From an uncultured Nocardioidaceae bacterium (lineage in GTDB: Bacteria > Actinomycetota > Actinomycetes > Propionibacteriales > Nocardioidaceae), in NCBI GenBank assembly GCA_902805845.1, contig CADCUI010000049.1, forward strand, positions 1 to 33,093: DNA of 33,093 bases, written 5' to 3'. Positions 25,251 to 33,093 of the stretch are shown here, in pieces. The position numbers and the translations under genes were made by a program. The notes under the pieces are model-generated. The model had not been told where the DNA came from and did not search any database. It saw only the letters and a program-made list of their open reading frames with translations. Position 1 is the first letter of the stretch. Each line of letters begins with the position of its first letter.

Positions 25251-25919
25251 TCAGGCGGCGGCCTGGTTGTTGCCGGCCGCGTTGGCGCCCTGGTCCTCGA
25301 CCGCGGGCTGCCCGCCCGAGGACCCGGCGAGGAGGTCGCCGACCTTGAGGACGCGGGACACGAGGTGGTCGAGCGCCTGGAGCTCCGCGTCTCCCACGTT
25401 GCCCGGGCCGGAGGCGCCACTGACCTGGGAGACGCCGTAGGGGTTGCCGTCGTTGAACTTCAGCTGGTCGGTGTAGCCGGGCGGCACGATGATCCCGCCG
25501 AAGTGGTAGATCGAGTTGTAGAGCGCCAGCAGCGTCGACTCCTGGCCGCCGTGCGCGGTCGAGCTGGAGGTGAAGCCGGAGTAGGCCTTGTCGGCGAGCT
25601 CGCCGCGGCTCCACTCGCCGCCCAGCGTGTCGAGGAACTGCTTGAGCTGGCTGGCGATGTTCCCGTAGCGCGTGGGTGACCCGAAGATCACCGCGTCCGC
25701 CCAGGTGACGTCGTCCGCGGCGGCCTTCGGCTCGTCCCTGGTGGCGTCGTGGTGCTGCTGCCACCCGTCGTTGGCCGCGATCGCGGACTCGGGCGCGAGC
25801 TCGGCGACCTGGCGCAGCCGGACCTCGGCGCCCTGCTTCTCGGCGGCCTCCGCCGAGCGGCGGGCCATCGCGTCGACGGTGCCGGTGGAGGAGTAGTAGA
25901 TGATCGACAGCTTGGTCAT
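25251..25919 (-). CDS. wrbA: WrbA-type NAD(P)H:quinone oxidoreductase (flavodoxin fold)
   Basis: WrbA proteins bind FMN and carry out two-electron reduction of quinones, avoiding semiquinone radicals. The 222-residue product begins MTKLSIIYYSSTGTVDAMA, the phosphate-binding loop, and has GSPTRYGNIASQLKQFLD and FTSSSTAHGGQESTLLALY, both WrbA hallmarks. About 20 residues rich in Ala, Gly and Asn are added at the C-terminus. I choose the start at 25919, with GAGAGG upstream on the - strand; the frame stays open far beyond but without motif support. It is divergent from the SDR operon, and both start sites have stress-type promoters. Confidence 0.9.
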   Translation of the reverse strand: MTKLSIIYYSSTGTVDAMARRSAEAAEKQGAEVRLRQVAELAPESAIAANDGWQQHHDATRDEPKAAADDVTWADAVIFGSPTRYGNIASQLKQFLDTLGGEWSRGELADKAYSGFTSSSTAHGGQESTLLALYNSIYHFGGIIVPPGYTDQLKFNDGNPYGVSQVSGASGPGNVGDAELQALDHLVSRVLKVGDLLAGSSGGQPAVEDQGANAAGNNQAAA

Positions 25920-25955
25920 GCGAGGCCTCTCGTCGGGGTGCGGGACAGCGGCCCC

Positions 25956-25980
25956 GTACCCGACCATTGGCGCTTCAACC
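25956..25980 (-). promoter_or_regulatory. Candidate sigma-B/F-type promoter of the wrbA-like gene
   Basis: On the - strand GGTT (25980-25977) is followed after 15 bp by GGGTAC (25961-25956), matching the GNNT-N14-16-GGGTAY consensus of the sigma-B family in Streptomyces and the sigma-F type in mycobacteria. The implied start near 25948 gives a leader of about 30 nt. It faces the equivalent element of the SDR gene 50 bp away. Confidence 0.6.
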
Positions 25981-26030
25981 TTCGTCGAGTGCCGACGTGA
26001 CGCGACCCACTCGGGGAGCCGGCGGTGTCC

Positions 26031-26055
26031 GTTTCCACCCGAGGGCCCTGGGTAG
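26031..26055 (+). promoter_or_regulatory. Candidate sigma-B/F-type promoter of the SDR-oxidoreductase operon
   Basis: GTTT (26031-26034), 15 bp and GGGTAG (26050-26055) form a near-perfect sigma-B/F-type promoter. Only 9 nt separate the -10 box from ATG 26065, so the mRNA should start at or within a couple of bases of the start codon and carry no Shine-Dalgarno sequence. Confidence 0.7.
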
Positions 26056-26064
26056 TGCACTCGC

Positions 26065-27102
26065 ATGCGACTCCCCACGGTCGGCCTCGGTCCGCTCACC
26101 GAGCGCATCATCGACCGGCTCGGCCTGCAGGGGCAGCCGTCGGCAGGACCGTCGGACCAGGCCCGTGTCATCGTCGTGACCGGCGCGACGAGCGGCATCG
26201 GCCGGGCCGTCGCCCACGAGGCCGCGTCACAGGGCCAGCACCTCGTCCTCGCCTCCCGCAGCGGCGAGTCGCTCGAGGAGGTCCGGCGGGAGTGCGCCGA
26301 GCGCGGTGCGCTCTCGGCATCGGTCGTCGTCACCGACGTCGGTGACGACGACGAGGTCGCGGCCCTGGTCGAGAAGACCCTCGCCGAGCACGGCCGCATC
26401 GACGCCGTCGTCAACTCCGCGGGCGTCGTGGCCTACGGCCAGGCCGAGGAGGTGCCCCGCGAGGTCTTCGACGGGGTGCTGCGGACCAACCTCACGGGGT
26501 CGGCCAACGTCGCCCGCCACGTGCTGCCGGTGCTGCGCCGCCAGGGAGCGGGCACGCTCGTGCTCGTGGGCTCGGTGCTCGGCCACCTCGCGGCGCCGAA
26601 GATGACGCCGTACGTCGTGAGCAAGTGGGGCGTCCGCGGCCTGGCCCGTCAGCTGCAGGTGGAGAACCGCGACGTCCCGGGCGTCCACGTGTGCCACCTC
26701 TCGCTCGGTGGCGTGGACACGCCGATCTACGACCAGGGAGCCAACTACACCGGGGCCCCCGGTCAGCCGCCGCCGTCGGTGAGCCCGGAGTACGCCGCGC
26801 GCCGGGTGCTGCGCCACATCGACTCCCCACCACCGGAGCTCCAGGTCGGGATCGGCAACGACGTCATGCGCTTCGGCTTCACGTTCCTCCCGCGTGCGTA
26901 CGACGCCCTGGTCGGCCCGTTCTTCGGCGTGGTCGGTCTCGACCCCAGCCGCAGCCGCGCGGTGGACGACGGCAACGTCCTGGAGCCGCGCCACCACGGC
27001 AACGCCGTCCACGGCGGGTACCAGAGCGTCGTCCACCGCGTCGGCCGCGCGCTGCTGCTCCGGGCCCGGGCGGCGACCGGCACCGGCCCGGGTCGACCGT
27101 GA
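26065..27102 (+). CDS. Short-chain dehydrogenase/reductase
   Basis: A classical SDR of 345 residues. The cofactor loop TGATSGIG is at 39-46, NSAG at 117-120, and the catalytic residues are N142, S170, Y183 and K187 (Y-V-V-S-K). Both a 34-residue N-terminal extension and about 90 extra C-terminal residues (from DSPPPELQVGIGNDVMRFG on) exceed the usual 250, placing it among the longer membrane- or lipid-associated SDRs. The substrate is unknown. It overlaps the following FAD oxidoreductase by 4 bp (GTGA), so the two probably act together. ATG 26065 is supported by promoter geometry rather than by a ribosome site. Confidence 0.88.
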   Translation: MRLPTVGLGPLTERIIDRLGLQGQPSAGPSDQARVIVVTGATSGIGRAVAHEAASQGQHLVLASRSGESLEEVRRECAERGALSASVVVTDVGDDDEVAALVEKTLAEHGRIDAVVNSAGVVAYGQAEEVPREVFDGVLRTNLTGSANVARHVLPVLRRQGAGTLVLVGSVLGHLAAPKMTPYVVSKWGVRGLARQLQVENRDVPGVHVCHLSLGGVDTPIYDQGANYTGAPGQPPPSVSPEYAARRVLRHIDSPPPELQVGIGNDVMRFGFTFLPRAYDALVGPFFGVVGLDPSRSRAVDDGNVLEPRHHGNAVHGGYQSVVHRVGRALLLRARAATGTGPGRP

Positions 27103-28709
27103 CCGAGAAGCGCTACGACGCCGTCGTCGTGGGTGGCGGGCCGAACGGGCTCGTCGCCGCCAACCACCTCGTCGACGCGGGCTGGTCGGTGCTGGTCCTG
27201 GAGGCGCAGCCGGACGTCGGCGGCGCCGTCCGCAGCGACCGCGAGCTCCATCCCGACTTCGTCCACGACACCTTCAGCGCCTTCTACCCGCTGGCAGCAG
27301 CGTCGGAGACGATCCAGTCCTTCCGGCTCGAGGACCACGGGCTGAGGTGGGTCCACGCACCCGCGGTGCTCGGCAACCCGCTGCCGGGCGGTGAGTGGGC
27401 CCTGCTGCACCGCGACCGCGAGGTCACGGCTGCCTTGGCTGAGGCTGCCCATCCCGGCGACGGCGAGGCGTGGCTGCGGTTCGTCGGCCTGTGGGACGTC
27501 ATGGGCGACTCCGTGGTCCGGGCACTGATCACGCCGTTCCCCCCGGTGCGGGCGGGGCTGTCAGCCCTGCGGCGACTCCCGTCGGCCGGCGGGCTGGACT
27601 TCGTCCGGATGATGCTGACGCCGGTGACCGACATCGGCCGGCAACACTTCGGTGGCGAGGCGCCGCGCATCCTGCTCGCGGGCAACGCCGGCCATGCCGA
27701 CATCCCGCTGGACGCCACCGGCTCCGGCGTCCTCGGGGTGCTGCTGTGCATGCTCGGACAGACCGTCGGCTTCCCCGTGCCGCAGGGCGGCGCCGGGATG
27801 CTGGCGCACGCTCTCGCCGACCGGCTACGGGCCGAGGGCGGGGAGATCCGCTGCGACGCCGAGGTGACCCGCATCGACGTCGAGGGCGGCCGGGCGGTCG
27901 GGGTCCGCGTGGGGGACGAGCGGTACGCCGCGGACCGTGCGGTGCTCGCCGATGTCGTCGCGTCGAAGCTCTACGGCGGCCTGGTGCCGGACGAGGACCT
28001 CCCCGACAAGGTCCGCAAGCAGATGCGGGTCTTCCAGCTCGACCCGGGGACGGTCAAGGTCGACTGGGCCCTCGACGGGCCCGTGCCGTGGGCGTCGCCG
28101 CCGGCCCACGACCCCGGCACGTTCCACGTCGCGGACTCCGTCGAGCAGATGAGCGAGTCCCTGGCACAGGTCACGGCCGGTGCCGTCCCGGCCAAGCCCT
28201 TCCTGCTCGCCGGCCAGATGACGACCTCGGACCCGACACGATCGCCTGCCGGGACCGAGTCCCTGTGGGCCTACACCCACGTGCCGCACCGCTCGGCGTA
28301 CGACGCCGGCGCCGAGGGCGGGGAGGTCCGCGGGGTGTGGGACCGCGACGACTGCGAACGGTTCGCCGACAGGATGCAGGCTCGGATCGAGGAGCACGCC
28401 CCCGACCTCGCCTCGCGGATCGTCGCCCGGCGGGTGCTCGGGCCGCGGGAGATGGAGGCGCGGGACGCCAACCTCGTCGGCGGCGCCGTCAACGGCGGCA
28501 CCGCCAACCTCCACCAGCAGCTGGTCTTCCGTCCGGTCACCAGCAGCTGGGGCCGTGCGGAGACGAGGATCGGGAGCCTCTACCTCGCCTCGGCCTCCGC
28601 GCACCCGGGTGGCGGTGTCCACGGCGCCCCGGGCATGAACGCCGCCCGAGCTGCTCTCGCCCACCACCGCCTGCGTGCGGTGACCCGCCGGACCTCTTCA
28701 CCGCGCTGA
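27099..28709 (+). CDS. Phytoene desaturase-like NAD(P)/FAD-dependent oxidoreductase (COG1233 type)
   Basis: The product is 536 residues from GTG 27099, overlapping the SDR stop; the longer open frame upstream shadows the SDR. The N-terminal dinucleotide-binding fold VVVGGGPNGLVAANHL has the acidic ribose ligand in LVLEAQ, followed by the family GG doublet VGGAVRS. The C-terminal FAD motif is LYLASASAHPGGGVHGAPG. Relatives desaturate, saturate or isomerise carotenoids, retinoids and other polyprenyl or lipid chains. No carotenoid genes are nearby, so a carotenoid role is not supported. With the coupled SDR it may modify a lipid or isoprenoid under stress; that is inference. Confidence 0.85.
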   Translation: MTEKRYDAVVVGGGPNGLVAANHLVDAGWSVLVLEAQPDVGGAVRSDRELHPDFVHDTFSAFYPLAAASETIQSFRLEDHGLRWVHAPAVLGNPLPGGEWALLHRDREVTAALAEAAHPGDGEAWLRFVGLWDVMGDSVVRALITPFPPVRAGLSALRRLPSAGGLDFVRMMLTPVTDIGRQHFGGEAPRILLAGNAGHADIPLDATGSGVLGVLLCMLGQTVGFPVPQGGAGMLAHALADRLRAEGGEIRCDAEVTRIDVEGGRAVGVRVGDERYAADRAVLADVVASKLYGGLVPDEDLPDKVRKQMRVFQLDPGTVKVDWALDGPVPWASPPAHDPGTFHVADSVEQMSESLAQVTAGAVPAKPFLLAGQMTTSDPTRSPAGTESLWAYTHVPHRSAYDAGAEGGEVRGVWDRDDCERFADRMQARIEEHAPDLASRIVARRVLGPREMEARDANLVGGAVNGGTANLHQQLVFRPVTSSWGRAETRIGSLYLASASAHPGGGVHGAPGMNAARAALAHHRLRAVTRRTSSPR

Positions 28710-28755
28710 TCGGTTCAGCAGCTCGAAGTACGGATTGCGTGCCGGGTCACACTGC

Positions 28756-28780
28756 GATTGTGAAAGACGGCGGTGGGTAG
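28756..28780 (+). promoter_or_regulatory. Candidate sigma-B/F-type promoter of the DUF4383 gene
   Basis: GATT (28756-28759), 15 bp and GGGTAG (28775-28780) fit GNNT-N14-16-GGGTAY except for the last base of the -10 box. The predicted start falls at 28787-28790, inside an inverted repeat TGGTGG...CCACCA (28784-28789 and 28796-28801). Confidence 0.6.
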
Positions 28781-28783
28781 GAA

Positions 28784-28813
28784 TGGTGGGCTAGTCCACC
28801 ACCTTTTGAAAGG
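28784..28813 (+). promoter_or_regulatory. Two small inverted repeats in the DUF4383 leader
   Basis: TGGTGG (28784-28789) pairs with CCACCA (28796-28801), with an extra G-T pair and a CTAG loop; it straddles the predicted start site and could be an operator. Next, CCTT (28802-28805) can pair with AAGG (28810-28813), part of the likely ribosome site AAAGGA for ATG 28823. Neither is long enough to be certain. Confidence 0.35.
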
Positions 28814-28822
28814 AAGCCACGA

Positions 28823-29308
28823 ATGGCTTATTCCGCATCCTCCACCGGAGGCATCGACTCGGGCGCCGACAAGGCAGCGAAATTCGTCCGAAGCATGGCC
28901 GGCCTCGTCGGGGCCGTCTTCCTCCTCGTCGGGATCCTCGGGTTCATCCCGGGCATCACCTCGAACTACGGTTCGATGGAGTTCCTCGGCAACGACAGCA
29001 AGGCCAAGCTCCTCGGTCTCTTCCAGGTGTCGATCCTGCACAACATCGTCCACCTGCTGTTCGGCGTGGCCGGCCTCGCCATGGCGAAGGCCACCAAGTC
29101 GGCGACCACCTACCTCATCGGTGGCGGCATCATCTACCTGGTCCTCACCGTCTACGGTTTCGTCGTCGGTCAGAACACCGCTGCGAACTTCGTTCCGGTG
29201 AACACCGCGGACGACTTCCTCCACCTGGTTCTCGGTGTCGGCATGATCGCGCTCGGCCTCCCCGGACGCCGTGCGGTGGACGCCAACGGCGCCAGGACCG
29301 TCGCCTGA
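28823..29308 (+). CDS. DUF4383 four-helix membrane protein
   Basis: The 161-residue protein has four hydrophobic stretches: GLVGAVFLLVGILGFI, HNIVHLLFGVAGLAMA, YLIGGGIIYLVLTVYGFVV and FLHLVLGVGMIALGL. Two H-x2-H-L elements (HNIVHLL, and DDFLHLVLG) are hallmarks of the DUF4383 family, common in actinobacteria and of unknown function. The polar N-terminus with a Ser/Gly/Asp run probably faces the cytoplasm. It is monocistronic, with its own stress-type promoter and a very strong terminator. AAAGGA 10 nt upstream supports the ATG. Confidence 0.88.
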   Translation: MAYSASSTGGIDSGADKAAKFVRSMAGLVGAVFLLVGILGFIPGITSNYGSMEFLGNDSKAKLLGLFQVSILHNIVHLLFGVAGLAMAKATKSATTYLIGGGIIYLVLTVYGFVVGQNTAANFVPVNTADDFLHLVLGVGMIALGLPGRRAVDANGARTVA

Positions 29309-29316
29309 CGGCTGGA

Positions 29317-29341
29317 CCACCACCACGCACCACGCACCACG
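29317..29341 (+). repeat. Short tandem repeat of CACCACG units
   Basis: After the DUF4383 stop, CACCACG or close variants occur about three times in a row before the terminator stem. It is non-coding, with no visible function. Confidence 0.5.
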
Positions 29342-29375
29342 CAGAAGGGCGCCTCCTCCGGGAGGCGCCCTTCTG
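29342..29375. terminator. Strong hairpin terminator, 15-bp perfect stem
   Basis: CAGAAGGGCGCCTCC (29342-29356) is fully complementary to GGAGGCGCCCTTCTG (29361-29375) around a TCCG loop. On the + strand TCGTCTTGCC follows, a weak U-tract as often seen in high-GC genomes. It lies between the convergent DUF4383 and SRPBCC genes and could stop transcription from both sides. Confidence 0.85.
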
Positions 29376-29401
29376 TCGTCTTGCCCCGTTGTGGCCTTCG
29401 G

Positions 29402-29863
29402 TCAGTGGGCCTCGCGCGGCGTCCTGCCCTCGACCCGCCCCTCGCAGAGGAACGCCAGCCTGCGGAGCGTCTCGGAGTTGCGCCACGTCATGACCGGGGC
29501 GCGGACGACGCCGGGAACCAGGCGGCCCGGGCCGGTCGCGGCGTCCTCACGGATCCGCACCACGGTCTGGTCCCCGGCCGGCTCGACCTCGATGACCACG
29601 TCGGCCTCGCCCAGCGGCCACCCCTTGGCCCGCAGCTGCATGCGGCGCTGCGGCTCGACGGAGACGACCCGGGTCTCGTCGTTGACGACGACGGGCCACA
29701 CCCCTGCGGAATGGTGGAGCCGCGAGCCCGCGGCAGGCCAGTCGGCGTCGACGTCGCGCATCCGGGTGGCGCCCACGACCCACACCGGGTAGAGCCACCC
29801 GTCGCTCAGCACCTGCCACACCGCCTCGGGGGAGGCCTGCACCGTCCTCTCGTTCACGCTCAT
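29402..29863 (-). CDS. SRPBCC-family (START/Bet v1-like) protein
   Basis: The 153-residue protein begins MSVNERTVQASPEAVWQVLS, the usual first strand and helix of the SRPBCC hydrophobic-pocket fold, and includes PAAGSRLHHSAGVWP and a C-terminal helix with SETLRRLAFLCEG. Members bind lipids, polyketides or other hydrophobic ligands, and many are uncharacterised stress proteins. There is no signal peptide. It sits 50 bp behind the TetR gene on the same strand but has its own sigma-B/F-type promoter in that gap. ATG 29863 is set by the promoter, 9 nt from the -10 box, with no ribosome site. Confidence 0.8.
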   Translation of the reverse strand: MSVNERTVQASPEAVWQVLSDGWLYPVWVVGATRMRDVDADWPAAGSRLHHSAGVWPVVVNDETRVVSVEPQRRMQLRAKGWPLGEADVVIEVEPAGDQTVVRIREDAATGPGRLVPGVVRAPVMTWRNSETLRRLAFLCEGRVEGRTPREAH

Positions 29864-29872
29864 GCCGTGGAC

Positions 29873-29898
29873 CTACCCGGCGCCCGACGCCGCGACAC
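29873..29898 (-). promoter_or_regulatory. Candidate sigma-B/F-type promoter of the SRPBCC gene
   Basis: On the - strand GTGT (29898-29895), 16 bp and GGGTAG (29878-29873), then 9 nt to the ATG. Spacer and -10-to-ATG distances are identical to those before the PRC-barrel gene at 30749. It lies wholly between the TetR stop and this start codon. Confidence 0.65.
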
Positions 29899-29913
29899 GG
29901 GAGACGACCACCC

Positions 29914-30621
29914 CTACTGGCTCAGCTCCCGGTCGAGCCGGTCGAGCAGCGCCTCCAGCGACCTCTCGAACTCGGCCGCCGCGTCGTGCGTTGCCAGCGG
30001 GCCCTGCAGCCGCAGGACGGTCGGAGTGGTGTCGAGGTCGAGCCGGGTGTCGTTGCGGGGGACGTCGTCACGCGCCACGGCGGCGCCGCCCTCGTCGAGG
30101 GGCTCGTCGGGAGGGCCGCTGTCGGCACCGAGCTGGGACACCTCCAGCAGCAGGTGACCGAGGAGGAAGCTCGTGAAGACCTTGTAGACCTCGACCGCAG
30201 CCTCGTCAGGCAGGCCGCGGCTGACCAGGCCGCCGAGGAAGTCCTCGACGAGCTGCAGGCTGCGCAGCGGGGGGCGCAGCCACGGCGCCGCGGGCGGGTG
30301 GGTCGCCATGAGCGGGAAGAGGTTGGGGTGCGCGGTCGCGACGGTCCTGACCTCGTGAGCCACGTGCAGGAGGAAGGCCTGCCAGCCGTCGGCCGGGCCG
30401 AGCCTCTCCGCGGCCGGCAGCCGCACGTTCGCCACGACCTCGGCCACCATGCCCTCCAGCAGGTCCTCCCGGCCGTTGACGTGGTGGTAGAGCGACATCG
30501 CCTCCACGCCGAGGACCTGCCCGAGCTTCCGCATCGTCAGCGCGGTCAGCCCGTGCTCGTCGGCGTACGCGACGGCCGTCCGCAGGATCGCCGCGCGCGA
30601 CAGCGGCTCACGTCCGGTCAC
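29914..30621 (-). CDS. TetR-family regulator with TetR_C-type ligand domain
   Basis: The helix-turn-helix is clear: SRAAILRTAVAYADEHG, then LTMRKLGQVLGVEAMSLYHH with the recognition helix. The C-terminal domain (GWQAFLLHVAHEVRTVATAH onward) matches the classical tetracycline-repressor type of ligand domain. I prefer GTG 30621 (235 residues) because homology starts at once and GAGG lies upstream. Frames from 30750 or 30768 would add a Pro/Gly-rich stretch and run through the PRC-barrel promoter. It is divergent from the PRC-barrel gene; target and ligand are unknown. Nearby genes with their own stress promoters need not be its targets. Confidence 0.82.
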   Translation of the reverse strand: MTGREPLSRAAILRTAVAYADEHGLTALTMRKLGQVLGVEAMSLYHHVNGREDLLEGMVAEVVANVRLPAAERLGPADGWQAFLLHVAHEVRTVATAHPNLFPLMATHPPAAPWLRPPLRSLQLVEDFLGGLVSRGLPDEAAVEVYKVFTSFLLGHLLLEVSQLGADSGPPDEPLDEGGAAVARDDVPRNDTRLDLDTTPTVLRLQGPLATHDAAAEFERSLEALLDRLDRELSQ

Positions 30622-30713
30622 GTGCCTGTCTACCTCGCTGCACACGTCCCTGCCAAGGGCCGTCCACGCCCGGGGCGGAGGCGGCCCGCTCGGGTCCGCG
30701 CCGTCGGGCCCAG

Positions 30714-30739
30714 GTGTCGGCCGAGCTCCGCCCGGGTAG
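30714..30739 (+). promoter_or_regulatory. Candidate sigma-B/F-type promoter of the PRC-barrel/GlgC-like operon
   Basis: GTGT (30714-30717), 16 bp and GGGTAG (30734-30739), then 9 nt to ATG 30749. The GTGT box, 16-bp spacer and 9-nt distance equal those of the SRPBCC promoter, and the first two equal those of the second PRC-barrel gene. Confidence 0.68.
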
Positions 30740-30748
30740 GTCCCGCTC

Positions 30749-31567
30749 ATGATCGACACCCAGCACATCGACCGGATCGAGGGCTCGACGGCGTACGACG
30801 CCGCAGGTGAGAAGGTCGGGCGCGTCGGCCAGCTCTACCTCGACGACCAGAGCGGGACCCCCAGCTGGATCACCGTGGCCACGGGGTTCTTCGGCACCGC
30901 CGAGACGTTCGTGCCACTCGAGGGAGCCTCCTTCGACGGTGAGGACCTGCGGCTGGCCTACAGCAAGGACACGATCAAGAACGCGCCGCGGTTCGACACC
31001 GACGAGCACCTCGACCAGGGCGAGGAGGCCGAGCTCTTCCGCTACTACGGCCTCGGTGGTGTCGGTGGCGCCGAGACCACCGAGACGACGCAGACCGCCC
31101 ACAGCACCACCGAGTCCGTGCACACCGCTCCGACCGCGACGACCGGCACCACCCACGCAGGCCTGAGCACGGGAACCACGGCGGCGACCGGTGACGACGC
31201 CACGGTGACCCTGTCGGAGGAACGGCTCGACATCGGCAAGGCCGAGCAGGTGGCCGGGCGGGTGAGGCTGCGCAAGTACGTCACCACCGAGACCGAGACC
31301 ATCACGGTGCCGGTCCGCAAGGAGAAGCTCGTCGTCGAGCGGGTCCCCGTCGCCGACACCGCCACGGACCCGATCACCGAGCCTGACGGCCACACCGAGA
31401 TCCTCGAGGAGGTCACGCTGCGCGAGGAGCGCGTGATCGTCGGCAAGGAGACCGTGGCCGTGGAGCAGGTCCGCGTCGGCAAGCAAGAGGTGACCGAGGA
31501 GCAGGAAGTCACCGAAGAGGTACGCCGCGAGCGCGCGGACGTCGACCACGACCGGCCGACCCACTGA
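30749..31567 (+). CDS. PRC-barrel and DUF2382 domain protein
   Basis: The 272-residue protein has a PRC-barrel at about residues 1-85 (GSTAYDAAGEKVGRVGQLYL, then WITVATGFFG), a Thr/Ala/His-rich linker at about 105-150, and a DUF2382 domain from about 152 with repeated charged strands such as RLRKYVTTETETITVPVRKE and LEEVTLREERVIVGKETV. No signal peptide or membrane helix is seen, so it is probably cytoplasmic. Such proteins are widespread in actinobacteria and often annotated as stress-response proteins; no biochemical function is established to my knowledge. The first 35 residues are clearly related to the gene at 32989. Confidence 0.88.
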   Translation: MIDTQHIDRIEGSTAYDAAGEKVGRVGQLYLDDQSGTPSWITVATGFFGTAETFVPLEGASFDGEDLRLAYSKDTIKNAPRFDTDEHLDQGEEAELFRYYGLGGVGGAETTETTQTAHSTTESVHTAPTATTGTTHAGLSTGTTAATGDDATVTLSEERLDIGKAEQVAGRVRLRKYVTTETETITVPVRKEKLVVERVPVADTATDPITEPDGHTEILEEVTLREERVIVGKETVAVEQVRVGKQEVTEEQEVTEEVRRERADVDHDRPTH

Positions 31568-31604
31568 GGTCGTCCGTGGGGAGCCTGCCGGGCGGGGGGC
31601 TGCG

Positions 31605-32849
31605 GTGAGCAGGGACGTCCTGGCGCTCGTGCAGGCCGGCGGTCAGGGCGGCCGGATGGACGTCCTGACGCGGGAACGCGCGAAGCCGGCGCTGCCGTTC
31701 GGGGGCGTCCACCGACTGATCGACTTCCCGCTGTCGACCTTCGTCCACGCCGACGTCCGGGACGTCTGGGTCAGCGTGGAGTACCAGGTGGCGTCGATCG
31801 ACCAGTACCTCTCGGGCGGTCGGCCGTGGGACCTCGACAGCAGCCGCGGCGGCTTCCGCCGGATGGTGCCGCAGACCGGCAGTGGCCCGGCGACCGAGGA
31901 CAAGTTCGCGCACGGCAACGGCGACCTGCTGCTGCGGCTCGCGCGGGACATCGAGACGCACGGCGCGACCACGCTCGTGGTCTCGAGCTCCGACCACGTC
32001 TTCGCCGCCGACCTGGACCCGGTGATCGCCGAGCACCGGGCCGCCGGGCTGGCGGCGACGGTGCTGACCGCGGAGGTCGAGCCCGGCGAGGCCTCCAACA
32101 ACGTCACGGTCCTCCAGGAGGACGGGCTCGTGACCGGGCTCGAGGAGAAGCCCGACGAGCCCCGCACCGGCACGGTGCTGACCGAGGTCTTCGTCTACGA
32201 GGTGCAGCCGCTGCTCGCCGCCCTGCGCGAGCTCCGGGCCGAGCTCTCGGCCGAGGCTGACGGCGACGACAGCGGGATCGGCGACTTCGCCGACCACCTG
32301 CTGCCCCGCCTGGTCGACCGACGCCAGGTCAGAGCCGTCCCGCTGACCGGCTACTGGCGCGACCTGGGCCGCCCCTCGGCGTACCTCCAGGGCCACCGTG
32401 ACCTGCTGGCGGGACGGATCGACGCGTTGACCGTCCCCGACCGTCCGGTCATCAGCAACTGGCAGGACCGGGCCGCCGCCCGGGTGCGGCGTGGTGCCGT
32501 GCTCGACGACAGCCTGGTCTCGCCGGGCTGCGACGTCGCGGGGGAGGTGGTCCGCAGCGTCCTCGGGCCCGGGGTCGTCGTCGAGGCCGGTGCCCGCGTC
32601 ACGGACTGCGTGCTCCTCCAGGACGTCGTGGTACGTCGCGGCGCCACCGTCACGACCACCCTGGTCGACGAGCGGTGTGTCATCGGGGAGGACGCCACCG
32701 TCGGGCCGTCGCCGGACCAGCAGGACGAGCAGTCCTGGAGCCGGACGCCCGAGGACGGGGACATCACCATGCTCGGGCTGGACTGCACCGTGGGCCGAGG
32801 CGTGAGGCTGGCCGCCGGCTCCCGGCTCGAACCCGGGACGACCGCGTAA
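31605..32849 (+). CDS. GlgC-like sugar-1-phosphate nucleotidyltransferase
   Basis: The 414-residue protein has the ADP-glucose pyrophosphorylase architecture: an N-terminal nucleotidyltransferase domain with AGGQGGRM (11-18) and RAKPALPFGGVHRLIDFPLS (25-44), catalytic SSDHVF, the sugar-phosphate lysine in GLEEKP, and GYWRDLGRPSAYLQGHRDLL. A C-terminal left-handed beta-helix of hexapeptide repeats (VVRSVLGPGVVVEAGARV) follows. It departs from canonical GlgC in the glycine loop and where GTADAV is expected, reading TEDKFAHGNGDLL. The substrate may therefore not be ADP-glucose. The GTG start lies 37 bp after the PRC-barrel gene, so both are likely co-transcribed. Confidence 0.8.
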   Translation: MSRDVLALVQAGGQGGRMDVLTRERAKPALPFGGVHRLIDFPLSTFVHADVRDVWVSVEYQVASIDQYLSGGRPWDLDSSRGGFRRMVPQTGSGPATEDKFAHGNGDLLLRLARDIETHGATTLVVSSSDHVFAADLDPVIAEHRAAGLAATVLTAEVEPGEASNNVTVLQEDGLVTGLEEKPDEPRTGTVLTEVFVYEVQPLLAALRELRAELSAEADGDDSGIGDFADHLLPRLVDRRQVRAVPLTGYWRDLGRPSAYLQGHRDLLAGRIDALTVPDRPVISNWQDRAAARVRRGAVLDDSLVSPGCDVAGEVVRSVLGPGVVVEAGARVTDCVLLQDVVVRRGATVTTTLVDERCVIGEDATVGPSPDQQDEQSWSRTPEDGDITMLGLDCTVGRGVRLAAGSRLEPGTTA

Positions 32850-32855
32850 AAACCG

Positions 32856-32950
32856 ACGGCCTTACGCGATAAGGGGTGTAACCCCGAGAGCCCCCGGGTA
32901 GGTGCTTCCCCGGCGGGGGCCGTACGACGGCCCCGAAGACTTAGCAAGTC
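32856..32950 (+). promoter_or_regulatory. Cluster of overlapping hairpins before the second PRC-barrel gene
   Basis: Perfect complementary pairs: CCTTA/TAAGG (32860-32864, 32870-32874), GGGGT/ACCCC (32873-32877, 32881-32885), GCCCCCG/CGGGGGC (32890-32896, 32914-32920), GGGGCCGT/ACGGCCCC (32916-32923, 32927-32934) and GACTT/AAGTC (32938-32942, 32946-32950). CGACGGCC occurs twice (32854-32861, 32925-32932), and either copy can pair with the single GGCCGT at 32918-32923, giving mutually exclusive structures. It matches no riboswitch class I can recognise. It may be an end-of-operon structure, a leader element or both. Confidence 0.45.
32876..32901 (+). promoter_or_regulatory. Candidate sigma-B/F-type promoter of the second PRC-barrel gene
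   Basis: GTGT (32876-32879), 16 bp and GGGTAG (32896-32901) repeat the geometry of the first PRC-barrel promoter. Here the ATG is 87 nt beyond the -10 box, so a leader of about 80 nt with two hairpins would be made. The boxes overlap hairpin arms, so the match could partly reflect the structured element instead. Confidence 0.55.
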
Positions 32951-32988
32951 GTCAGTCACCAGCCACCACCTACCAACCAGGAGGCAAC

Positions 32989-33093
32989 ATGCTTGACGCC
33001 CAAGACGCCCGCAGCATCATGGGGGCCACGGCGTACGGCAGCGACGGGGACAAGATCGGCAAGGTCGGTCAGGTCTACCTCGACGACCAGTCC
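32989..33093 (+). CDS. PRC-barrel protein, N-terminal part only (window edge)
   Basis: Thirty-five codons are visible from ATG 32989, preceded by a strong AGGAGG (32979-32984). The sequence contains GATAYGSDGDKIGKVGQVYL, which aligns without gaps to GSTAYDAAGEKVGRVGQLYL of the gene at 30749, and both continue D-D-Q-S. It is therefore a paralogue of that PRC-barrel/DUF2382 protein. Whether it has the DUF2382 half lies outside the window. Unlike the first copy it has a conventional ribosome site and a long leader. Confidence 0.85.
   Translation, partial: MLDAQDARSIMGATAYGSDGDKIGKVGQVYLDDQS

Follow-up and report, generated by a model that had tools for sequence, protein, structure and literature searches.

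The window studied here is a stretch of 33,093 nucleotides (nt), the whole of contig C49 in a 3.28 Mb, 91-contig assembly from an uncultured Nocardioidaceae bacterium. Its last part, from 25254 to the contig end, is an island of small transcription units on both strands, and nearly every one of them starts behind a two-part sequence made of GNNT, a spacer of 15 or 16 nt, and GGGTA followed by C or G. Stress regulons under SigB/SigF have been described in Streptomyces, Mycobacterium and Bacillus, and an earlier note on this DNA had proposed that the island is a general-stress set of that type. Judging from sequence comparison, the island is very probably a conserved general-stress cassette of the Nocardioidaceae, read from several separate SigB/SigF-type promoters.

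We used two forms of the motif, a strict one (GNNT-N15/16-GGGTA[CG]) and a looser one (GNNT-N14-17-GGGTA, with any sixth base). The strict form has exactly six matches in the 33,093 bases, all at transcription-unit starts of the island, with spacers of 15, 15, 15, 16, 16 and 16 nt in order from the first unit to the last. The first candidate SigB/F-type promoter (GGTT-N15-GGGTAC, 25956..25980, minus strand) ends 36 nt before the ATG of a gene for a WrbA-type NAD(P)H:quinone oxidoreductase (25254..25919, minus strand; NF002999, 157.2 bits, and TIGR01755, 152.0 bits, both above cut-off). The gene finder had placed this start at a GTG at 25967, overlapping the motif, a choice that we rejected because the protein read from the ATG at 25919 matches the WrbA profile from its residue 1 onwards; the WrbA motif is therefore intergenic. 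The second (GTTT-N15-GGGTAG, 26031..26055, plus strand) ends 9 nt before the ATG of a short-chain dehydrogenase/reductase (SDR) gene (26065..27102, plus strand; PF00106, 145.6 bits), whose stop is overlapped by the start of a gene for a flavin adenine dinucleotide (FAD)-dependent oxidoreductase of the CrtI/CrtO-like family (27099..28709, plus strand; NF045689, 214.7 bits). The third (GATT-N15-GGGTAG, 28756..28780, plus strand) ends 42 nt before the ATG of a DUF4383 gene (28823..29308, plus strand; PF14325, 156 bits).

The remaining three boxes all read GTGT-N16-GGGTAG. One (29873..29898, minus strand) ends 9 nt before the ATG of a gene for an SRPBCC/polyketide-cyclase-like protein (29402..29863, minus strand; PF10604, 43.1 bits), and the next (30714..30739, plus strand) ends, again 9 nt before the ATG, ahead of a gene for a PRC-barrel protein with a C-terminal YsnF/AvaK domain, DUF2382 (30749..31567, plus strand; PF09557, 93.7 bits; PF05239, 31.4 bits; TIGR02271, 63.0 bits, above the cut-off of 49.75). 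A divergent GlgC-like nucleotidyltransferase gene follows 37 nt after the PRC gene (31605..32849, plus strand; TIGR02091, 188.5 bits). The last box (32876..32901, plus strand) ends 87 nt before the ATG of a second PRC-barrel gene, of which only the start is present (32989..33093, plus strand; 57% identity to the PRC protein over its first 35 residues), since the window is the whole contig and the gene runs off its end; the island may continue past that point. Between the SRPBCC and PRC genes lies a TetR-family regulator gene (29914..30621, minus strand; PF02909, 47.6 bits), with no motif upstream in the window.

The pattern scan thus reproduced exactly, boxes and spacers included, the count given in the earlier note, in which six of the seven transcription-unit starts carried the motif. 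The same note had seen none in the gaps of the nuo and inositol regions and had named the TetR gene as the sole start without one. Both statements hold: the looser pattern adds four matches in the window (250, 3139, 10964 and 27288), and because all four fall within coding sequence, the nuo and inositol gaps stay free of the motif even in the looser scan, while TetR homologues elsewhere carry it at 1 of 27 loci.

A motif with so loose a -35 element as GNNT may well turn up by chance, and one has to ask whether the boxes arose by chance, or reflect some sequence preference of intergenic DNA, in front of genes that use housekeeping promoters. As background we took 600 kb of stretches from the same genome, with genes called by a simple codon-usage gene finder and 8.75% of the bases noncoding; it must be kept in mind that this sample is non-random, covers less than one-fifth of the genome and depends on the gene calls of a simple script. 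The 19 permuted orders of the pentamer GGGTA served as controls, and a match was said to be in promoter position when it lay at most 200 nt upstream of a start on the same strand. GNNT-15/16-GGGTA has 34 matches in the sample, of which 17 are in promoter position; the comparison of intergenic with coding match rates proposed in the earlier note gives 18 noncoding matches among the 34, against the 8.75% of noncoding DNA. For the permuted pentamers, 87 of 1,872 matches are in promoter position, the best single one being GGTGA (13 of 271), so that the odds of promoter position are about 20-fold higher for the motif than for permuted boxes (Fisher P 1e-13). Without the three stretches that contain sigma genes or a second copy of the cassette, the counts are 13 of 27 and 78 of 1,672. 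At a rate of 17 per 600 kb, finding six or more in the 6,946 bases of the island has a Poisson probability of 6.8e-8, which becomes about 3e-5 after multiplication by how many stretches of that length the genome contains.

Chance is favoured by the half of the sample matches that lie outside promoter position, and by a genome-wide count in which GNNTN{14,17}GGGTAS is rarer than its reverse (329 matches vs 515). The motif signal is in where the matches fall, not in how many there are. We also considered a sigma-A reading, with GGGTAG as part of a TANNNT -10 element, and rejected it: none of the six boxes has T at the sixth place of TANNNT, and a sigma-70 scan of 25900-33093 gives a single site, within the second PRC gene. 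These two observations, together with the 20-fold odds and the retention of the motif across genera before DUF4383, SRPBCC and PRC genes and not before TetR genes, make a chance origin of the boxes very improbable.

That retention was scored in relatives with GNNT-N14-17-GGGTA upstream of each homologue. It is clearest for DUF4383, with the motif at 19 of 30 loci (a set that includes both copies of the genome itself and a few rows that begin within the protein) and at 17 of 28 when these copies are set aside, the permuted boxes averaging 0.03 per locus each. A second, class-wide set was made up of 29 further loci, namely the strongest matches from the 54 genomes that had one, 4 of these loci belonging to the family of the window. 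The motif was again found at 19, for a permuted mean of 1.5 of 29; the highest permuted box was GGTAG, with 10, which overlaps GGGTAG by a one-base shift. The spacer is exactly 15 in 18 of these 19 class-wide promoters, and the sample from the genome itself peaks at 16. PRC homologues carry the motif at 14 of 28 usable loci (15 of 30 before dropping L068, a match, and L079, whose upstream flanks are lost at contig ends) and at 12 of 26 without own copies, for a permuted mean of 1.9 of 30. Sigma factor homologues have it at 10 of 30 loci (own copy counted, four rows cut by contig ends; permuted mean 1.7). The 1 of 27 found for TetR homologues is background (permuted mean 0.9; 27 of 30 loci, own copy counted, three partial matches left out and two of the 27 cut by contig ends). 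Fisher tests for TetR and sigma ran with denominators of 24 and 25. We also noted DUF4383 homologues on 26 plasmid records, 18 of them from Rhodococcus, and one locus (L139, G056:C1, about 11.8-13.2 kb) where DUF4383 is immediately followed by a SigB/F-like sigma gene, with the motif upstream of both.

The gene order is conserved as well. A paralogous cassette on contig C2 of the same genome (7.4-13.4 kb; locus L020, 7361-13351) contains SDR, FAD, DUF4383, SRPBCC (in reverse), PRC and GlgC-like genes in the order of the window, with 54-78% protein identity and without TetR and WrbA, and exact motifs precede its DUF4383, SRPBCC and PRC genes. In G003, a genome of the same genus, we found SDR-FAD-DUF4383, SRPBCC, TetR, PRC and GlgC-like genes; SDR (GTTT-N16-GGGTAG), DUF4383, SRPBCC and PRC are each preceded by the motif. 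Another genome of that genus, G004, has SDR, FAD, DUF4383, SRPBCC, TetR and GlgC-like genes, the PRC gene being absent at that place, and motifs before the DUF4383, SRPBCC and GlgC-like genes. The TetR genes of G003 and G004 have no motif upstream. By these comparisons, the island is a conserved, duplicated cassette, not a chance gathering of genes, and WrbA is outside its conserved core.

Beyond these, 14 named loci from Nocardioides, Aeromicrobium and relatives were compared (a fifteenth, a partial match in an unrelated phylum, was set aside). What they share is a core of SRPBCC, SDR and FAD genes, though some loci do not show all three in the stretch covered; Nocardioides terrigena and Aeromicrobium sp. 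Root344 are examples of carriers. Of the 13 loci with an SRPBCC gene, 8 have the motif upstream of it; one of the 13 (L118) is the G004 contig and is not independent of the G004 result. In two more, L117 and L125, among the 7 of the 14 loci inspected for this, the motif stands at the head of a co-directional run with SRPBCC. The distance from motif to SRPBCC start is 9 nt in the window, 10 in G003, 49 on C2 and 46 in G004, with the box intact throughout; since the box has shifted and is still intact, it seems to be kept as a promoter and not as leftover sequence identity.

The joint occurrence of SRPBCC, SDR and FAD genes in named Nocardioides and Aeromicrobium genomes raises another possibility, namely that the cassette is foremost biosynthetic, its SRPBCC, SDR and CrtO-like FAD proteins acting on a carotenoid or other polyene under stress control, as with the SigF-dependent crt locus of Mycobacterium smegmatis (PMC4694148). 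In NCBIfam, the FAD protein indeed scores best with the CrtO beta-carotene ketolase model (NF045689), although its 214.7 bits do not reach the cut-off of 1000; only distant relatives have solved structures, the nearest by sequence being a phytoene dehydrogenase (4dgk, E 9.1e-10). On contig C67 (L133, 9887-14495), a gene of the phytoene/squalene synthase family precedes one for an FAD-protein homologue (27% identity), after which come four more genes. This stretch is on another contig. Its intergenic DNA is free of the motif, in contrast to the SigF-controlled crt locus of M. smegmatis, and we therefore rejected the reading of the system as a crt locus. DUF4383, PRC and GlgC-like genes are, moreover, ill-suited to a pigment pathway. 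Altogether, we regard a primarily biosynthetic cassette as unlikely.

A general-stress cassette calls for a matching sigma factor, and the genome encodes two sigma genes of the SigB/F type, as judged by sequence. TIGR02980 gives one gene above cut-off (C2:68449-69117, 302 bits) and one at C86:21280 that is just below it (233.9 vs 234.35), followed by four weaker matches of at most 131.5 bits. The C86 sigma gene has GTTT-N17-GGGTAG 82 nt upstream. Among the matches listed, 25 related genomes have an SDR homologue of at least 200 bits, and in 7 of them it is no more than about 20 kb away from a SigB/F-like gene of at least 150 bits, for about 0.5 expected. Other genes stand near these sigma genes. 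On C2, the sigma gene shares one same-strand run with an RsbW-like gene and a gene for nickel superoxide dismutase (L008, 8428-10347). On C86, about 13 kb from the sigma gene, a third PRC/DUF2382 gene (L134, 7412-9907) has GTGT-N16-GGGTAG and is divergent from an operon with GTTT-N15-GGGTAA, the second gene of which has a mechanosensitive-channel helix domain, a neighbour compatible with osmotic stress. On the strand opposite to the C86 sigma gene (L009, 4910-9948), a zinc alcohol dehydrogenase gene has GGTT-N16-GGGTAC, and the gene after it resembles phosphoketolase by eye.

Having two such sigma genes leaves room for a different arrangement, in which the promoters are real and serve two or more SigB/F-type sigma factors that answer to different signals, so that the genes, WrbA and the second PRC gene especially, are not one co-induced set. 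The nine SigB homologues of Streptomyces coelicolor do overlap only partly in promoter choice in the passages seen of PMC8346170. Furthermore, WrbA is outside the conserved core, and the sixth base varies, with GGGTAG at 5 of the 6 window sites and GGGTAT, GGGTAC and GGGTAG in the C2 copy. On the other hand, no box feature splits the sites cleanly into two classes, and in the G003 cassette these genes have retained the motif as a group; we consider this division of labour possible but rather doubtful. A separate GGGTAG sub-class for the island was tried as well and rejected, as C, T and G all occur at the sixth place in the C2 copy and in the relatives.

Several further results, to be added to the genome-wide rarity of the motif and to the make-up of the sample, weigh against a single SigB/F-type stress cassette. 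Eleven of 30 DUF4383 loci and 14 of 28 PRC loci lack the motif. Immediately upstream of SDR homologues, it occurs at 3 of 29 loci (29 of 30 in the set, own copy counted), near background (permuted mean 1.5, highest 4); this footprint is weak because SDR is usually inside a run headed by another gene. G004 has no motif upstream of its SDR gene, and on C2 the SDR gene has GTTTCCAC and then, at spacer 16, GGATAT where GGGTAG is expected, the -10 pentamer being a one-base variant of the motif (GTTT-N16-GGATAT). The WrbA footprint is 3 of 15, two of them at the usual distance, for a permuted mean of 0.7 (15 of 21 loci, own copy and five weak partial matches left out). As for the regulators, the 140-residue protein encoded directly upstream of the C2 sigma gene stays below cut-off both for PRK04069 RsbW (47.4 bits, cut-off 145) and for HATPase_c_2 (24.9 bits, cut-off 27.4), no motif was found just upstream of its gene, and the evidence does not separate the two candidate sigma factors of the genome.

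Among the claimed members, the weaker cases are those of WrbA, the SDR-proximal site and the second PRC gene, WrbA and the SDR-proximal site being the least conserved. The SigB/F-type stress-island proposal of the earlier note is strongly supported by the enrichment in promoter position, the clustering, the conservation of the boxes, the negative TetR gene and the presence of two sigma genes; the inclusion of WrbA, outside the core and with 3 of 15 loci, is the part that fared less well.

The three boxes that end 9 nt before an ATG point to a further property of this cassette. Bacterial transcription initiates some 7-10 nt after the -10 element; a box that ends 9 nt ahead of the ATG would thus put the first transcribed base on the start codon or beside it, and the SDR, SRPBCC and PRC mRNAs are predicted, from these distances, to be leaderless. 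Among 52 motif matches upstream of called starts in relatives, the distance is 9 nt in nine cases and 10 nt in two, the next being only at 26; the sample from the genome itself gives 9, 10, 10 and 11 nt, then nothing until 27. At 8-11 nt, the relatives have 11 of 52 for the motif vs 8 of 181 for permuted boxes (Fisher P 5e-4, G004 counted once), and the own sample 4 of 30 vs 9 of 348. Distances of 8-11 nt are often listed in Table 1 of a study of M. smegmatis SigF targets, as far as the passages seen go (PMC4694148), and leaderless mRNAs are described as common in that species in parts of another paper (PMC6448022). In the same genome, DUF445 and DnaJ-domain genes (L022, 1922-3184, and L150, 18948-19745) have GTGT-type boxes ending 10 nt before the ATG and are possible further leaderless members on that basis.

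Known systems provide close parallels for the promoters and looser ones for the genes. Promoters mapped for SigB homologues of S. coelicolor have GNNT at -35 and GGG(T)A at -10, including GGGTAG, e.g., SCO1276p, and that species resembles the present one in combining GNNT/GGGTA boxes with several SigB homologues per genome, though with nine homologues instead of two; the mapping there was done with a two-plasmid system in Escherichia coli, and no cassette like that of the window was found in the passages seen (PMC8346170). The SigF regulon of M. smegmatis likewise has GTTT-N14-19-GGGTA promoters, and it includes a dense run of listed genes from MSMEG_1768 to MSMEG_1804, among them genes for dehydrogenases and conserved hypothetical proteins; its gene content differs from that of the window, and dependence was measured there in a sigF mutant and is predicted from comparison here, as far as the passages seen of that study go (PMC4694148). 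GGGTA is also present in 56 M. smegmatis promoters induced at low oxygen, according to parts of PMC6448022. In Mycobacterium avium, the DUF4383 gene MAV_3060 rises by 5.02 log2 under microaerophilic/low-oxygen conditions and is unaffected by loss of DosRS, a behaviour that is as expected for a second stress regulator and fits the DUF4383 gene of the window, although no sigma factor is assigned to it in the passages seen (PMC11876180). No other paper among those searched names DUF4383. Finally, in the parts seen of PMC7824861, ysnF of Bacillus subtilis belongs to the SigB core set for germination and outgrowth, in parallel with the PRC protein of the window, whose YsnF/AvaK domain passes its cut-off; the main text of a second SigB paper, in the portion seen, makes no mention of ysnF (PMC9847131). 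B. subtilis is from a different phylum, and the window protein adds an N-terminal PRC barrel and a GlgC-like operon neighbour. Our literature search returned no paper joining PRC-barrel with DUF2382 and, among the matches listed, no SigB/SigF regulon study in Nocardioidaceae, whose absence is not thereby shown.

As regards the proteins themselves, the AlphaFold2 model of the DUF4383 product has four long helices (mean predicted local distance difference test score 86.8) and suggests that it is probably a membrane protein; Foldseek gave no significant fold match for this model (best E 0.13). Within NCBIfam, the SRPBCC protein matches a single family, a toxin-antitoxin one (Rv0910-like; 30.4 bits, cut-off 100), and we take this match as distant fold kinship only. 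The "sugar-nucleotide enzyme" that the earlier note had placed in the island is, more precisely, a divergent GlgC paralogue, with 188.5-188.7 bits for a TIGR02091 cut-off of 424.9 that it does not reach, and the GlgC that passes the cut-off sits at C70 (457.7 bits).

We infer that the island depends on a SigB/F-type sigma factor and is induced by stress, and the same holds for the acting sigma factor, partner switching, the start sites and the task of each protein. In this scheme, stress would free a SigB/F-family sigma factor from an RsbW-type anti-sigma factor, and polymerase with the freed sigma would start at the GNNT-N15/16-GGGTA(C/G) boxes of the WrbA, SDR-FAD, DUF4383, SRPBCC, PRC-GlgC-like and second PRC units. 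The SDR, SRPBCC and PRC mRNAs would be leaderless, starting right at the ATG or beside it, those of WrbA, DUF4383 and the second PRC gene having leaders of roughly 30-80 nt. The products, i.e., quinone/flavin redox enzymes, a four-helix protein, PRC/YsnF proteins and a GlgC-like enzyme, would adjust the redox state, the envelope and the carbohydrate stores of the cell.

To the earlier note, the present analysis adds a second copy of the cassette, a DUF4383 footprint that spans the class, and starts that are predicted to be leaderless. The cassette predicts shared induction of its genes, leaderless starts about 9 nt past GGGTAG and a role for DUF4383 throughout the class, and it links the uncharacterised DUF4383 and PRC/DUF2382 proteins, the CrtO-like FAD enzyme and the divergent GlgC to one type of regulator. 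More broadly, and quite tentatively, there may be a core SigB/F stress regulon common to the class Actinomycetes, with DUF4383 as one of its hallmarks, which the Nocardioidaceae would have condensed into a duplicated cassette with promoters nearly gene by gene, about half of them leaderless; we think of this as a real possibility that falls short of being probable. In such a system, leaderless promoters would let stress proteins form without a ribosome-binding site upon sigma release.

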